Shown here: positions 1 to 12,677 of the stretch, in pieces | Layout of the letters: each line of letters opens with the position of its first letter | Position numbering within the stretch: the stretch's first letter is position 1 | DNA from: an uncultured Fidelibacterota bacterium | Lineage (GTDB): Bacteria > Fidelibacterota > UBA8477 > JABMPR01 | Length of the DNA: 39,764 bases | NCBI GenBank assembly: GCA_937888365.1 | Contig: CALBFA010000046.1 | Location: 1-39,764, forward strand | Direction: 5' to 3' | Made by a program: the position numbers and the translations under genes | The notes under the pieces: model-generated | Databases searched by the model: none | The model's input: only the letters and a program-made list of their open reading frames with translations | Told to the model about the DNA's origin: nothing

Positions 1-66
1 GGTTGGTGGTGGTGTCACTTTGGAATCTGACAAAATAGTGACTTCACCAATCTTTAATTTTGGCAT
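1..66 (-). CDS. Start of a small gene of unknown function (partial)
   Basis: Only the first 22 codons are inside the window, reading leftwards and starting MPKLKIGEVT. I do not recognise the protein. The start is well supported: AAAGGAG sits 7 nt before the ATG. The leader and first residues resemble those of the gene at 645-1034, which starts MPKAKTK, has AAAGGGAG at the same distance, and has a similar ATAGTTCTT stretch further upstream. The two may be co-regulated or derived from one another. It lies within the putative integrated element. Confidence 0.5.
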   Translation of the reverse strand, partial: MPKLKIGEVTILSDSKVTPPPT

Positions 67-473
67 AGTAAACTCCTTTACATGTGAGGTCGGTTTATTC
101 CGAAGCACTCACTAAAAGGGAAAGAAGAACTATGAGGGGGAACAGAACCCAAAAAAAAAGGAAGAAAAAAAAGAAACACAAAACCAAGACCAAAGAATGT
201 TAAAATCCAATATCCAAAATTGGACAAACAGATTGGTTGGATAGCTCAAACGCAGTCATAGCAACGCTTTCAGCGAATCCAATAAAGATTAGTCCAAAAG
301 GGGTATTGGATGCTGTAAGTCGTTGATACTCAGGCAAGTCCAATATCCAATAGCTCTCTATATACATATTCTTGTTGGAATATTAAAAGATACACTCTAT
401 TCCAGGCCGTTTAGACAACAAAAAAAAAGATTAGAAAAGGCTGTTTAGAAAAGGCTGTTTAGAACTGACAAGT

Positions 474-590
474 AAAAAATAATGACGGAAGCTAGGGCAG
501 TGATTACCCTAGCCTTAGAACTATGCGATATACTCTCGCGTGTACCGCATTCCGTCACGTGCTAACCAGTGAGCGATTATAGCTCCTGGC
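474..590 (-). ncRNA. Candidate structured RNA (three-way junction plus hairpin)
   Basis: By hand folding, TGACGGAA (483-490) pairs with TTCCGTCA (550-557). This closes a junction that holds a perfect 7-bp hairpin (491-497 with 507-513) and a second hairpin (524-533 with 540-549, one mismatch). Next to it, 566-574 pairs with 582-589 with a single bulged base. On the minus strand the closing stem is followed by TTATTTTTT, which looks like a terminator tail, so minus-strand transcription is favoured. I match it to no known RNA family. Alternatives are an origin of transfer or a folded recombination site; the strand and function are inference. Confidence 0.35.
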
Positions 591-601
591 GCAATACTTA
601 T

Positions 602-638
602 AAAAACAACCCCTCAAGCGGAATGCTCAAGGGGTTGT
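602..638 (-). terminator. Intrinsic terminator of the 129-aa gene
   Basis: On the minus strand 638-625 pairs with 619-606 to give a 14-bp stem (two G-U pairs) with the loop ATTCC. A run of five T follows. It lies just after the stop codon at 645, so it ends the transcript of the 129-aa gene. The plus strand has no T-run after the hairpin. Confidence 0.88.
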
Positions 639-644
639 AAATGG

Positions 645-1034
645 TTATGCAATACTACTTGCTAGTGCAAGAACACTAGCGGATAGTGATTGCTTTGGTT
701 TCTCTATGAATCTAGCGGATGTCACATGACCATAAAGCTCAGTCCAAGTGTCATGCTTGGAACTATCCAACTTAAACTCGGTGAATTCAAACACCAATTT
801 TAAGTTGTTCTTGCTAGCATGTGCTAGCATCTTTTTTGCTGTCTCGATATCTTTATCGAGAATAGCGTATGATATATGATCTACGGTATCTTCACCGCGT
901 CTCATATATCCAAGAAAGTTTGATATGGTACGGGCTTCGCCCGTGTTCATATCGTTAAACGTCCTAATATCGCCAAGTGCATTGACGATAAATGTTGTTA
1001 TTTCAACTGTTGCTTTTGTTTTTGCTTTAGGCAT
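645..1034 (-). CDS. Small protein of unknown function (129 aa), integrated element
   Basis: I do not recognise this protein. It starts MPKAKTKATVEITTF and has no signal peptide or membrane segment. It is charged, with a central part rich in K, D and E, and ends in a small-residue tail (SLSASVLALASSIA). The start is supported by AAAGGGAG 7 nt upstream, and a strong intrinsic terminator follows directly, so it is probably a one-gene transcript. The leader resembles that of the partial gene at 1-66. A DNA-binding or accessory role for the mobile element is possible, but nothing in the sequence shows it. That it is a real gene rests on its start signals, its terminator and its length in an otherwise gene-poor stretch. 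Confidence 0.7.
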   Translation of the reverse strand: MPKAKTKATVEITTFIVNALGDIRTFNDMNTGEARTISNFLGYMRRGEDTVDHISYAILDKDIETAKKMLAHASKNNLKLVFEFTEFKLDSSKHDTWTELYGHVTSARFIEKPKQSLSASVLALASSIA

Positions 1035-1214
1035 GGTAGACTCCCTTTGTCAATTAATATTTGTGATCACAGTTCATCTGCAATCAATCGAAAGCAAAAA
1101 CAAAAGAACTATGAAATCATAAGAGATATGTGAAGAGAAGAAGAACTGTAATCACAATACCACAATCATAGAGAAGAAAGAGAATAGAGAAAGAGAATAG
1201 AGAAATACAAAGAG

Positions 1215-1263
1215 AGAAAGAAAAAGAAATGAAAAGACCTCCTTATTCTTTCTTTTTCTTTCT
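1215..1263. repeat. Polypurine/polypyrimidine inverted repeat
   Basis: The 15 bases at 1215-1229 (AGAAAGAAAAAGAAA) are the exact reverse complement of 1249-1263, with a 19-base spacer. A second CT copy lies at about 1277-1294. Each arm is all purine or all pyrimidine, so a cruciform or an RNA hairpin could form, but a chance match in a biased region is also possible. Confidence 0.5.
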
Positions 1264-1590
1264 TTTAAGCGGAACCTTTTCTTTCTTTTTCTTTTAGAGC
1301 TCTTTCTTTAAATTCAATACCATAACCATAGAAAAGAAACAGAACCAAGAAATACAAAGAGAGAGAGAAAGAAACAGAAGTATTCTTAAACATAATGAAA
1401 TAGGAACATAAGATAGAGAATAGAGAAGTATTCTTAGAACTTAATATTCATAAAGAAATAATCATTATAGAGTATGGAATCGAGTATGGAGTAATAGTAA
1501 AGCTATCACCTACCCACTCTAACTTCTTCAATATCAATACGTTACGAAGTAATTAGTAACGAGAATAGATGAAAAGACGAAACCACTAGT

Positions 1591-1617
1591 ACGAGTGAGT
1601 GCGAAGCACGAGTGAGT
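1591..1617 (+). repeat. Paired ACGAGTGAGT direct repeat
   Basis: Two exact copies of ACGAGTGAGT (1591-1600 and 1608-1617) flank GCGAAGC, and a small palindrome GTGCGAAGCAC spans the junction (1599-1609). It is the only clear non-low-complexity motif in its neighbourhood. No function can be assigned. Confidence 0.5.
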
Positions 1618-1733
1618 ACTACAACAATCATCTTCTTCTTCTTTGTTTATGATGCATCTCGATTGTTACCTTTGTGTTTGTGTATGATTGTTTCTATTCT
1701 TTGTTCTCTTTTACTTTACATACTGAGACTAAA

Positions 1734-1972
1734 CCAATACCATTGTTTATTCTACTTGATAGTTATATGCTAACCAATTACCGACCCCAATACCATTTTA
1801 ATGTACCCACCCCGATTATACTTAACAAGTCTCACTCCCAATCTCATTCATTTTTTTATTCTCTCTCACTCCCAATGTGATTCTTTTTTTTTGTTCTTTA
1901 TTCCAATACCATTGTTCCCTCTTGTGTGTGGTTATGGTTTTGTTTTTTTTTACAGAAACCAATACCATTGTT
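1734..1972 (+). repeat. Dispersed CCAATACCATT repeat, four copies
   Basis: CCAATACCATTGTT occurs exactly at 1734-1747, 1903-1916 and 1959-1972, and a shorter CCAATACCATT at 1787-1797. Spacings are 53, 116 and 56 bp, all near multiples of half the longest. Weaker CAATACCA versions occur at about 1155 and 1314. All lie in the same orientation. They could be iteron-like or protein-binding sites of the mobile element. Confidence 0.6.
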
Positions 1973-2181
1973 AGGTTTATAATATGACAATTATTTTTTT
2001 TATATTTTTTTAAAATAAAATTTGATAATGGAGTTGCACTTTTTAAATTTCTTTCGAAACGAAGTGAGAAAGATTCTGTTAATTTTTAAAAAGCTTTTAC
2101 ATGACCAAGGTTCTTTCTTTTCTTTATGTTACTTTCTTTTCTTTCTTTAAAATCGTGAAAATCGTGAAAATGTTTTTTTGA

Positions 2182-3165
2182 TTAATTTTCGAGAATTTGG
2201 GCGATATTGATGTAATCGGATTTGAGTAATCTCAGGTAGTGTTTTTCGGTGATGGTAACGGATGAGTGTCTGAGGTATTTTGATACTTCATAGATACCAA
2301 CACCACGTTTAATGAGAATGGCCCCACATGTTCGTCTGAATGAATGTGCTGTGAAAGGTATGTTAAGGGTATTGGATATGGCTTTGATATGATCTTTGAC
2401 GTATGAGTAGTGATAATTGAAAAGGAGTGGTTCAGTTCCACGTCTTCGTTCAATAATTGCACTCGCATCTTTATTCAACCAAAGCTTTTCGTGAGATTTA
2501 TTGTTTTTAGTGTCTAGGAGCTCGATGTAGGCCGTATGAACCTGTTCCCAAGGTGTATGTATCACTTCGCGTATTCTCGCGCCTGTATGCAATAATACTG
2601 TCATGAGTTCTCTTAGGTCTTGGTCTGCAGCTTCCATAATGAGCTTGAGTTGTTTATCATTTAGCCAGGTTGCTTTGCTATCGATTAGATGTTCCGACTG
2701 TAGATGCCATTTAGGGGTCTTGGTAATGACTTCTGTTTCCTTGAGCCAGTTGACAAATGCTCGGGTATGACGAATAATGGAGTTGTAGGTGGCTGTAACT
2801 TTAGTCCTGAGCATCTTACTTTGCCACTCTTGGTATAGGGAAATGGTGATGTCTTCGGGATGAGAATGACCGTATTCGTTGACGAAGTATTTAAGCAGGT
2901 GTAGGTATGTCTCATAGGAAGATTTCTTCACTGTGACCTGTTTATATTCCAAAAAAGATAGGTAGTAGGATTCAATTGTCTTTGTAGGCTTTGGTGGTGG
3001 AAATTCTTTCTCTATAGTTTCCTGAGCCACGTACTTTGCAAGGAGTCTTTTCGCCTGTGTTTGGGTGACGTGGGCGGTGACCTGTTTTTCTTTTCCGTCA
3101 ACCGTATATCGGATCAGCCAACAAGGTTGATTTTTCGCTTTTTCGTTCTTTATGAGTTTTGCCAT
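2182..3165 (-). CDS. Tyrosine recombinase / integrase
   Basis: Site-specific DNA recombinase of the phage-integrase family (327 aa). Residues 1-50 resemble an arm-type DNA-binding domain, about 60-160 the core-binding SAM-like domain, and 170-320 the catalytic domain. The catalytic set is complete: R197 in TGARIRE, a lysine near 223 in the beta-hairpin, H274-x-x-R277 in HSFRR, H300 in LRHSS and nucleophile Y310 in EKHYLRL. The gene points away from tRNA-Pro, with its start 179 bp from the tRNA 3' end. The gap between them holds direct and inverted repeats suited to integrase binding. It most likely integrates and excises the element to its left. No sign of truncation. Which element type it serves cannot be told. 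Confidence 0.95.
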   Translation of the reverse strand: MAKLIKNEKAKNQPCWLIRYTVDGKEKQVTAHVTQTQAKRLLAKYVAQETIEKEFPPPKPTKTIESYYLSFLEYKQVTVKKSSYETYLHLLKYFVNEYGHSHPEDITISLYQEWQSKMLRTKVTATYNSIIRHTRAFVNWLKETEVITKTPKWHLQSEHLIDSKATWLNDKQLKLIMEAADQDLRELMTVLLHTGARIREVIHTPWEQVHTAYIELLDTKNNKSHEKLWLNKDASAIIERRRGTEPLLFNYHYSYVKDHIKAISNTLNIPFTAHSFRRTCGAILIKRGVGIYEVSKYLRHSSVTITEKHYLRLLKSDYINIAQILEN

Positions 3166-3219
3166 AAATCAAAATATGATAGCAGAGTATAGGTGTCAAT
3201 TGGTATTATGCCCATAAAC

Positions 3220-3243
3220 ACGTCACCAAATACGTCACCTAAT
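3220..3243 (+). repeat. Tandem 12-bp repeat between integrase and tRNA
   Basis: ACGTCACCAAAT (3220-3231) is followed directly by ACGTCACCTAAT (3232-3243), an 11/12 match, and an inverted partial copy AGGTGTCAAT lies at 3191-3200. Lying between the integrase start and its presumed target, these are good candidates for arm-type integrase sites or an operator of the integrase gene. Confidence 0.6.
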
Positions 3244-3292
3244 CGCGTATTTTAGGGGTAAAAATGGGGTATTTTGGGCATATTTCGGACTT

Positions 3293-3314
3293 GGGGAAAC
3301 TCTCTCGTTTCCCC
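3293..3314. repeat. 8-bp inverted repeat GGGGAAAC/GTTTCCCC
   Basis: A perfect palindrome with a 6-base spacer lies 31 bp from the tRNA-Pro 3' end. On the minus strand it would form a hairpin just after the tRNA, but no T-run follows, so terminator function is doubtful. A recombinase or excisionase site is the alternative. Confidence 0.5.
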
Positions 3315-3344
3315 GTAACTCTCTGATTCTTAGTGACTTAGCTG

Positions 3345-3419
3345 TCGGAATGGGGAGATTTGAACTCCCGACCTCTTGACCCCCAGTCAAGCGCGCTAAC
3401 CGGGCTGCGCTACATTCCG
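3345..3419 (-). tRNA. tRNA-Pro (anticodon GGG)
   Basis: The 75-nt sequence folds as a standard cloverleaf: acceptor CGGAATG/CATTCCG with discriminator A, D-arm GCGC/GCGC, anticodon stem CTTGA/TCAAG with loop CTGGGGG, and T-arm GGGAG/CTCCC with loop TTCAAAT. The anticodon is GGG, reading proline CCC/CCU. CCA is not encoded. The 3' part is the probable attachment site of the element at 1-3344, which would then have restored the 3' end on insertion. Confidence 0.95.
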
Positions 3420-10240: not shown

Positions 10241-10246
10241 GAAACG

Positions 10247-10327
10247 CTTTTTGGGGTGCTAGGATAGGTTTCCTAGCTGAGAAAAACCCATTGAACCTGA
10301 TCTGGATAATGCCAGCGGAGGGAGAAG
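10247..10327 (+). promoter_or_regulatory. TPP riboswitch (THI-box) with built-in ribosome-site control
   Basis: The conserved THI elements appear in order: GGGGTGCT, a P3 hairpin (AGGATAGGTTTCCT), GCTGAGAA, ACCC, TTGAACCTGATCTGGAT, AATGCCAGCG and GGAGGGAGA. P1 pairs CTTTTT(10247-10252 region) with GAGAAG (10322-10327). The only Shine-Dalgarno for the next gene, GGAGG (10317-10321), lies in the conserved core and abuts P1. TPP binding should therefore hide it directly and stop translation. There is no separate expression platform or terminator hairpin before the start codon at 10332. Confidence 0.97.
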
Positions 10328-10331
10328 ATTG

Positions 10332-12677
10332 ATGCGTACAAGTCCTTTTTTATTTTTAATCATTTTTATTTTTGCAAGTCAACTATTTTCACAAACTAGG
10401 TTTGAGGGATACATTTATGACAATATCTCACAAAAGCCTTTGGTTGGAGCGAATATTACAATGGGTGATCGAGGAACCATGAGTGATAAGGAGGGCTATT
10501 TTTCCTTCGTTTCGGAATCGACGGGTCCTTTAATCATTCAATATATCGGTTACAAAACACAATCGATTTCATCATTTACACATGGGATGAAAATATATTT
10601 AGAGCCGATCCTTATTCGTACCCAAAGTATCGTTGTTAAAGGTGGGTATGTGAATGAGACACTTACGAATCAAAACGCGAGTATTGCCATATTTGATACA
10701 CAAGAGCTAAAGAAATCAAAAGCACAACATTTTCAAGGCTTAATGAATCAAATTCCCAATCTTAATTTTGCAGGCGGAACATCCAGACCTCGCTATTTTC
10801 AAATTCGTGGAATCGGCGAGAGGAGTCAATTTGCTGGAGAAGGCAGCCCTGTTTTCTCTGTGGGATTCCTTTTTGACGATTTTGATATGACAGGGATGTC
10901 CATGAATTCATTCCTTTTTGATATTGATCAGGTGGAAGTATTTCGTGGACCGCAATCATCTGTATTTGGCCCATCCGCCATCGGAGGGTTGATTTACATG
11001 CGCTCAAAAGACATCCCCAAAGATTTAGAAGTGAATTTTAAATTTTCAGCAGGAAATTATAGATTGCTAGAAAAAGCATTTTCAATTGGGACATCGCATT
11101 TTAATAATTTATACGCACATCGCCTTATGGTGCTTAGTTCTCGCCACAACGGTTTTCGTGAGAATAAATATTTGAATCGGGATGATACGAACGGCAAAAA
11201 CGAATTTATGATGTACTATAAGGGAAAAATTCAATCGACATCGAACATCATTACAAATTTTGCCGTATTAAAATCTATGGCTAAAAATGGCTATGATGCC
11301 TGGTCGCCTGACAATAAACGCGTCTCATATGCGGACCAACCTGGCGTCGATCATCAAGATCTCGATGGTTTTTCTGCGAATACAATATGGACACCTAGCG
11401 GGGACCATTTATTAAAAATAAGTTACGCGCAAACGCAATCCAAAATGGTTTATAGTTACGATAGTGATTGGGGAAATAATATTTATTGGGCACAAGAACC
11501 CTATAATTTTGATCCCGTTGTAGAAGGTTGGGAATATTCGTTTTTTGATGAAACGTTCCGAGACAGATTTACTCAATCCATGGATTTAAAATGGAATTAT
11601 TTGCCAAAGAATAAAGATTATAATTTAACGGCTGGATTCTATATTAAAAATTTAACCGAATCTGATTCTGCGACAGGGTGGTTATTTGGCGGCGATGATT
11701 TTAGTTTATTAAGTGAGTATAATATTGGCTCTATTTCAAGTTATATACAATATCAAAATCAATGGACATCAAAATTCTCGTCTTTATTTAATATTCGTGG
11801 AGAAATGAGGAACACAGATTATAATGACGACAATGATGTAAATTCTGTTACGATTGATTCGCTCTTGGGATGGAAAGCCAGTTTTGATTATCAGCTAACA
11901 GATCATGCAAAAATATTTTTTAGTGCGGCTCGCGGCTACAAAGGTGGTGGCATTAATCAACATCCTAAATTATCCGATGAGAATCGACCTTATAGTTCTG
12001 AAACCATGGATAATTTTGAAATTGGATTGCGAAGTATTGGCGAAAATTATCAAATAGCATCAACAGCATTTTATGCGATTCGACATCACCAACAAGTAAA
12101 TTTGAGCCGTCAACAAAATGAAAATGACCCCAATAGTTTCGTTTATTTCACATCGAATGCAACGTCAGGAAATCAATCTGGCCTTGAAATAGAAGGGGAA
12201 TATGTGCCACATAAAAAATGGACAATTAAAACGGCTATAGGATTTTTAAAAACACATGTTGATGCCTATGAATTTAAAGTTGATTCATTAACGACACTTC
12301 AACTTGGTGACAGAGAAATAGCCCAGGCTCCGCGTTATAGTTTTCAAGTGAGCGCTGAGTTTAGACTTTCGAAATCGCTTCAAATATCCATCAGTGCAAA
12401 CGGGAAAGACGCATTTTATTATTCTGACAGCCATGATGAAATAAGTCAGGCCTTTACCTTAATGAATGCGGATATTAGCTATCAATTCAAAGATTTTACA
12501 ACTTCACTTTGGGTCAAAAATTTAATGGATGTTGAGTATGGTGTTCGCGGATTTTATTTTGGTGTAGAACCACCAAACTACGAAGATAAGCTATATATTG
12601 GATTAGGCGATGCGCGTCAAATGGGTATAACGTTTGAATATTCACCTGATATGCGTGCTTATTTTAAGAAAAATTAA
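10332..12677 (+). CDS. TonB-dependent receptor, probable thiamine importer
   Basis: An outer-membrane active importer (781 aa). It has a signal peptide (residues 1-22, ending near SQLFSQ), a carboxypeptidase-regulatory-like domain (about 24-90, FEGYIYDNISQKPLVGANI), a plug domain (about 110-240, with NQIPNLNFAGGTSRPRYFQIRG) and a 22-strand-type barrel to the C-terminus. The TPP riboswitch directly in front shows that it is repressed when thiamine pyrophosphate is plentiful. The substrate is therefore most likely thiamine, its phosphate or a pyrimidine precursor. A TTG at 10329 is the alternative start; the ATG is better. A 122-bp gap separates it from the next gene. Confidence 0.92.
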   Translation: MRTSPFLFLIIFIFASQLFSQTRFEGYIYDNISQKPLVGANITMGDRGTMSDKEGYFSFVSESTGPLIIQYIGYKTQSISSFTHGMKIYLEPILIRTQSIVVKGGYVNETLTNQNASIAIFDTQELKKSKAQHFQGLMNQIPNLNFAGGTSRPRYFQIRGIGERSQFAGEGSPVFSVGFLFDDFDMTGMSMNSFLFDIDQVEVFRGPQSSVFGPSAIGGLIYMRSKDIPKDLEVNFKFSAGNYRLLEKAFSIGTSHFNNLYAHRLMVLSSRHNGFRENKYLNRDDTNGKNEFMMYYKGKIQSTSNIITNFAVLKSMAKNGYDAWSPDNKRVSYADQPGVDHQDLDGFSANTIWTPSGDHLLKISYAQTQSKMVYSYDSDWGNNIYWAQEPYNFDPVVEGWEYSFFDETFRDRFTQSMDLKWNYLPKNKDYNLTAGFYIKNLTESDSATGWLFGGDDFSLLSEYNIGSISSYIQYQNQWTSKFSSLFNIRGEMRNTDYNDDNDVNSVTIDSLLGWKASFDYQLTDHAKIFFSAARGYKGGGINQHPKLSDENRPYSSETMDNFEIGLRSIGENYQIASTAFYAIRHHQQVNLSRQQNENDPNSFVYFTSNATSGNQSGLEIEGEYVPHKKWTIKTAIGFLKTHVDAYEFKVDSLTTLQLGDREIAQAPRYSFQVSAEFRLSKSLQISISANGKDAFYYSDSHDEISQAFTLMNADISYQFKDFTTSLWVKNLMDVEYGVRGFYFGVEPPNYEDKLYIGLGDARQMGITFEYSPDMRAYFKKN

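Follow-up and report, generated by a model that had tools for sequence, protein, structure and literature searches.

A folded minus-strand block with a terminator-like end and a hyper-structured neighbouring gene in an integrative element of an uncultured Fidelibacterota bacterium

Phage P4 has a small structured immunity RNA in an integrative element, ahead of primase-helicase genes. An integron attC site is a single hairpin whose base carries the R boxes RYYYAAC / GTTRRRY. PLE satellites also encode ncRNAs (PMC7567579). GOLLD, ROOL, and OLE are densely structured large RNAs of mobile or phage elements and are often found near tRNA genes (PMC12286853). In this study, we analysed a stretch of 39,764 nucleotides (the window; contig C46) from an uncultured Fidelibacterota bacterium, in which an earlier note had pointed to a highly structured block at positions 474-590. 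The features of the locus are listed in Table 1.

Table 1. Features at and around the folded block (window positions; C81, second contig)
Feature	Position	Strand	Details or basis
Start of 126-aa gene (MPKLKIGEVT...) opening the downstream operon	1..66	-	continues on C81 (L057 12287-12656)
Segment repeated at C81:8818-8887	315..388	.	74 nt, 73% identity
Third related repeat GGCCGTTTAGAC	404-415	.	related to the repeats at 431..463
Tandem 14-bp repeats TTAGAAAAGGCTGT (x2)	431..463	.	possible protein-binding sites or iterons
Predicted leader RNA or small RNA, ~97 nt	473..570	-	12-nt 5' tail, three-way junction, U-tract; folds, promoter-like site
Terminator-like tail GUC-AUUAUUUUUU	474-486	-	14-mer GTCATTATTTTTTA also at C81:9024-9037(-)
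U-tract / T-run TATTTTTT	481-474	-	read from sequence, directly 3' of closing stem
Three-way junction	558-482	-	two hairpins inside closing stem
Closing stem of three-way junction	558-551 / 489-482	-	5' arm GUGACGGA, 3' arm UCCGUCAU; RNA folds
Inner hairpin 1	550-523	-	8+2 bp; RNA folds
Inner hairpin 2 GGCUAGGGUA-AUCAC-UGCCCUAGCU	514-490	-	10 bp, loop AUCAC; RNA folds
Flanking bulged stem	590-566	-	present in sequence; loop = -10 hexamer 581-576
Promoter-like site TTTATA-17-TATAAT	604-576	-	directly upstream of predicted RNA; -10 hexamer 581-576
14-bp intrinsic terminator of 129-aa gene, with T-run	606..638	-	terminator scan
Orphan 129-aa gene, hyper-structured mRNA	645-1034	-	coding score, fold versus synonymous shuffles
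Tyrosine integrase	2182..3165	-	PF00589, E 4.9e-14
tRNA-Pro(GGG), presumed integration site	3344..3419	-	3' end beside integrase

Fold and strand of the block

The minimum free energy of the block was -49.6 kcal/mol on the minus strand (z -6.3) and -42.0 kcal/mol on the plus strand (z -5.3), and on neither strand was any of 200 shuffles as stable. The structure therefore exceeds chance, as the earlier note had proposed. The stems that it had named (the closing stem, two inner hairpins, and a bulged flanking stem) were all present, as was the T-run on the minus strand. Its statement that nearly every base pairs was overstated, since about 55% (plus strand) to 63% (minus strand) of the bases were paired. 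A 37-codon ORF overlapping the block (445-558, minus strand, GTG start, hydrophobic C-terminus) lacked a ribosome-binding site and was rejected.

A G-U pair on one strand is an A-C mismatch on the opposite strand. The stems contained 8 internal G-U pairs on the minus strand versus 4 on the plus strand, and the single A-C mismatch of inner hairpin 1 on the plus strand corresponded to an internal G-U pair on the minus strand. The closing stem measured 7 bp on the plus strand and 8 bp on the minus strand. In the first 3.4 kb, a scan of the minus strand for promoter-like sites with at least 9 of 12 matches found only three, namely the one upstream of the block and two in front of the integrase. 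The -35 hexamer (TTTATA) of the site upstream of the block is weak, and its spacer resembles the spacing of the host's own promoters. Host sigma-70-type promoters were read by eye before tRNA-Arg (TTGACG-17-TATATT) and before a TPP riboswitch (TTGACT-16-TATAAT). This riboswitch (window 10242-10340, plus strand) belongs to the host chromosome and immediately precedes a gene for a TonB-dependent receptor. The stem 590-566 may be an operator-like palindrome instead of part of the promoter. The stronger fold, the G-U count, and the upstream promoter-like site together point to the minus strand as the best reading of the block.

The block DNA occurred once in its own genome. Against Rfam 15 at the gathering threshold, the window gave only two tRNAs and the TPP riboswitch, and relaxed thresholds on 380-700 and 1-2200 gave weak matches far below threshold. 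As the earlier note had expected, the block thus matched no known RNA family, at gathering score or among the weak matches. Searches of 245 related genomes and of viral contigs, GTDB contigs, phages, and plasmids likewise returned no homologue. A covariance model made from the single sequence found only weak matches in 244 genomes, and the two best alignments lay in apparent SecY-coding DNA. The block would be an orphan structured RNA, presumably transcribed and functional. It is extremely unlikely that the stems are functionless palindromes that arose by chance or as a mutational by-product, growing through template switching in an element that changes slowly or is single-copy. A single sequence with a homologue found nowhere would fit such an origin, but the stability unmatched by any shuffle, the promoter and U-tract in register with the fold, and the reading frame retained by the adjacent gene argue against it.

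The hyper-structured stretch and the 129-aa gene

The best-folding 110-nt windows of the whole 40 kb were located at about 200-950, partly inside the neighbouring coding gene. The 500 nt at 475-974 of the minus strand folded at -200 kcal/mol versus -115 kcal/mol for shuffles, a difference of about 85, and formed one chain of near-perfect hairpins. Across about 80 kb covering the window and the element, the next most deviant region lay 30 kcal/mol under its shuffles. The structured stretch is far larger than the block, which forms its end, and consists mostly of ORF 645-1034. What had been described as a block of 107 bases has real stems, but it is the distal end of a hyper-structured stretch of ~500 nt that includes a coding gene.

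None of 3000 no-stop shuffles reached the codon score of the 129-aa ORF, and a frame would stay open by chance in about 3 of 10,000 cases. The ORF is genuinely a coding gene. Its mRNA fold had a z of -8 against synonymous shuffles that preserve the protein and the codons; the sense strand was more structured than the antisense strand, and pieces of control genes were near 0. The other genes of the operon described below had a mean z of -2.4, compared with -0.4 for host genes. Selection for RNA structure across the operon was rejected because genes of other integrative elements also had negative values (by eye, about -0.9), which leaves the 129-aa gene as the one clear outlier in mRNA structure. 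In another integrative element, a small coiled-coil-like gene near the integrase (L048:8566-8949, plus strand) had an mRNA z of -6.3 against synonymous shuffles.

Homologues of the 129-aa protein were not found in viral contigs, GTDB contigs, phages, plasmids, the phylum, or the PDB. Its AlphaFold2 model (pLDDT 51) was too weak to name a fold, and Foldseek returned only insignificant OB-fold matches. An OB-like fold is possible, with low confidence.

We considered whether the whole of 1034-475 is a single functional large ornate RNA like GOLLD or ROOL, with a protein encoded in it; we regard this as very unlikely. Extreme structure over ~500 nt beside a tRNA-borne integrative element speaks for it. 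However, Rfam gave no match, a terminator lies in the middle of the stretch, the ORF is genuinely coding, and the structure consists of local hairpins and not of a tertiary architecture. It is also distinctly improbable that the stretch is a dual-use RNA, in which nearly every base of the mRNA of a gene of ~129 codons, and of the three-way-junction RNA behind it, has been fitted into one continuous hairpin chain while a protein is still encoded. The hyper-structured gene is a more surprising lead than the block. If selection on its RNA is real, it would be among the clearest cases from DNA elements of a coding sequence under very strong RNA-structure selection.

The element, its operon, and the terminator-like end

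The earlier note placed the block after a terminated gene in a mobile element. Both parts agreed with our analysis: gene 645-1034 on the minus strand ends in the 14-bp terminator, and the tyrosine integrase directly adjoins the 3' end of tRNA-Pro. Because of this adjacency, the assignment of window 1-3344 to an integrative element is supported. A second tRNA-Pro end on contig C48 proved to be a chance match; the gene around it reads as a TonB-type receptor. Between the integrase and the 129-aa gene, a long non-coding stretch contains repeated CCAATACCATTGTT-type motifs (window 1734-1976) and long purine-rich and pyrimidine-rich tracts (window 1100-1500).

Position 1 of the window is a contig end, and window 1-55 is identical to the end of contig C81 (12.7 kb, L057). 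We infer that this identity is the expected assembly overlap and that C81 continues the element; the join of C46 and C81 rests on this single overlap of 55 nt. The minus strand of C81 carries the 126-aa gene, a RadC-like gene, a DnaB/PriCT-type primase-helicase, and two small genes, and the orientation of the replication genes fits an operon downstream of the block. The block probably lies between the terminated gene 645-1034 and the replication operon of the element. For the 126-aa protein no homologue was found, and its sole match was a chance match to a protein that reads as a phage tail protein. The plus strand of C81 carries an AAA_25 ATPase and a complete type I restriction-modification system, with HsdM, HsdS, and HsdR at L057:409-6422.

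The repeats at 431-463 and 404-415 are possible protein-binding sites or replication iterons. The segment 315-388 recurs once, only within its own element, and thus stands at both ends of the replication operon; the two copies are possibly replication or regulatory sites. We also weighed whether the structure acts as DNA. Its hairpins could belong to an ssi/oriV-like origin, for replication or for single strands, or could form a single-stranded promoter that works while the element is single-stranded. The stems are near-perfect Watson-Crick stems, hence both strands fold; direct repeats lie at 431-458, the segment above is repeated at both operon ends, the element carries a primase-helicase and the AAA_25 ATPase, and the neighbouring 129-aa protein may, with low confidence, be OB-like. 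In contrast, the greater structure of the sense strand and the G-U pairs favouring the minus strand argue for RNA, and the Pfam matches included no recognised relaxase or rolling-circle Rep. We therefore consider a DNA-level role unlikely.

The closing stem at 558-551/489-482, followed by UAUUUUUU, has the G+C-rich stem and U-tract of an intrinsic terminator. The stem closes a three-way junction, whereas an intrinsic terminator has a simple short-loop hairpin, and a simple terminator scan did not list the block. At C81:9024-9037 on the minus strand, the exact 14-mer GTCATTATTTTTTA follows a hairpin of 9+5 bp with the same stem foot, GAC/GUC; this hairpin looks like an ordinary terminator that closes the operon at its far end. 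The 14-mer had only four copies in the 2.5-Mb genome, two of them within the 16-kb element; of the two outside, one reads as coding and one has no comparable hairpin. The recurrence of the tail behind a hairpin of the same element supports termination as the probable 3' function of the block. The proposal of an unknown structured RNA is partly supported: the non-coding fold exceeds chance, but its 3' end resembles an intrinsic terminator more than an unknown fold as such. An 18-nt identity to the foot of the block (TAAAAAATAATGACGGAA) was also seen at L084:969-986 on contig C76, where it overlaps a gene end and has no comparable hairpin.

Our leading interpretation, held with somewhat less than even confidence, is that the block is a minus-strand leader RNA of ~97 nt for the replication operon, ending in a branched intrinsic terminator and acting as an attenuator or a small RNA. 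RNA polymerase would start at ~570 from the TATAAT promoter, and the transcript would fold into a compact three-way junction. Polymerase would then stop at the U-tract 481-474, either every time or in a share of the transcription rounds, and some read-through would reach the operon. The branched terminator would attenuate the 126-aa gene, the RadC-like gene, the primase-helicase, and the two small genes, and the released RNA would possibly persist as a stable small RNA. The promoter-like site and the U-tract are in register with the fold, and the ends of the RNA are predicted from the sequence. Multibranch stems are unusual as terminators, the -35 hexamer is weak, and the plus strand also folds well; these points speak against the leader-RNA model.

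It is rather doubtful, though worth weighing, that the block is instead the outer 3' end of the transcript of the 129-aa gene, forming a second composite terminator and an RNase-resistant structure on a continuous RNA of ~992-475. The single hairpin chain over 475-974, with its exceptional energy, and the terminator tail shared with C81:9024-9037 favour such a composite end. However, the strong 14-bp terminator with its T-run already closes the gene at 638-606, and the promoter-like site lies between this terminator and the block. If the leader-RNA reading is true, an integrative element about which little is known would have, in its control region, a regulatory RNA without relatives that ends in a branched terminator.

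Comparison with known systems

The three-way junction of the block had no R boxes when read from the sequence, and integron attC was rejected. The block resembles the Frpo and ssi single-strand promoters and origins in being a hairpin-rich stretch near replication genes, but its structure favours the RNA-sense strand and conjugation genes were not seen. It shares with GOLLD, ROOL, and OLE its dense structure in a mobile element near a tRNA gene. It differs in its size of ~97 nt and in that the larger structured part is protein-coding, and the consensus of these families was not found in it, with no Rfam match.

The likeness to the P4 immunity RNA is that of a small structured RNA ahead of the primase-helicase genes of an integrative element, and the PLE ncRNAs (PMC7567579) are likewise comparable as small structured RNAs in an integrative element. 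The element and the sequence of the block are unrelated to those of P4 and PLE as far as tested. The block RNA formed no significant duplex with nine translation starts of the element, and no complementarity exceeded 10 nt except for the A/T-rich terminator tail. Action as a P4-type immunity RNA or a trans antisense RNA is not supported, as complementarity to leader sequences was not found.

Intrinsic terminators and leader attenuators share with the block a stable stem followed by a U-tract, located between a promoter and an operon, and the tail of the block is common to an apparently ordinary terminator of its own element. Ordinary intrinsic terminators have a simple hairpin ahead of the U-tract, whereas the stem at this place in the block encloses a three-way junction. 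No leader peptide, ligand, or antiterminator was identified, in contrast to leader attenuators. On the dual-use reading, judged improbable above, the neighbouring gene and the RNA behind it would be a structured coding RNA in a bacterial DNA element and would resemble the structured genomes of ssRNA phages.
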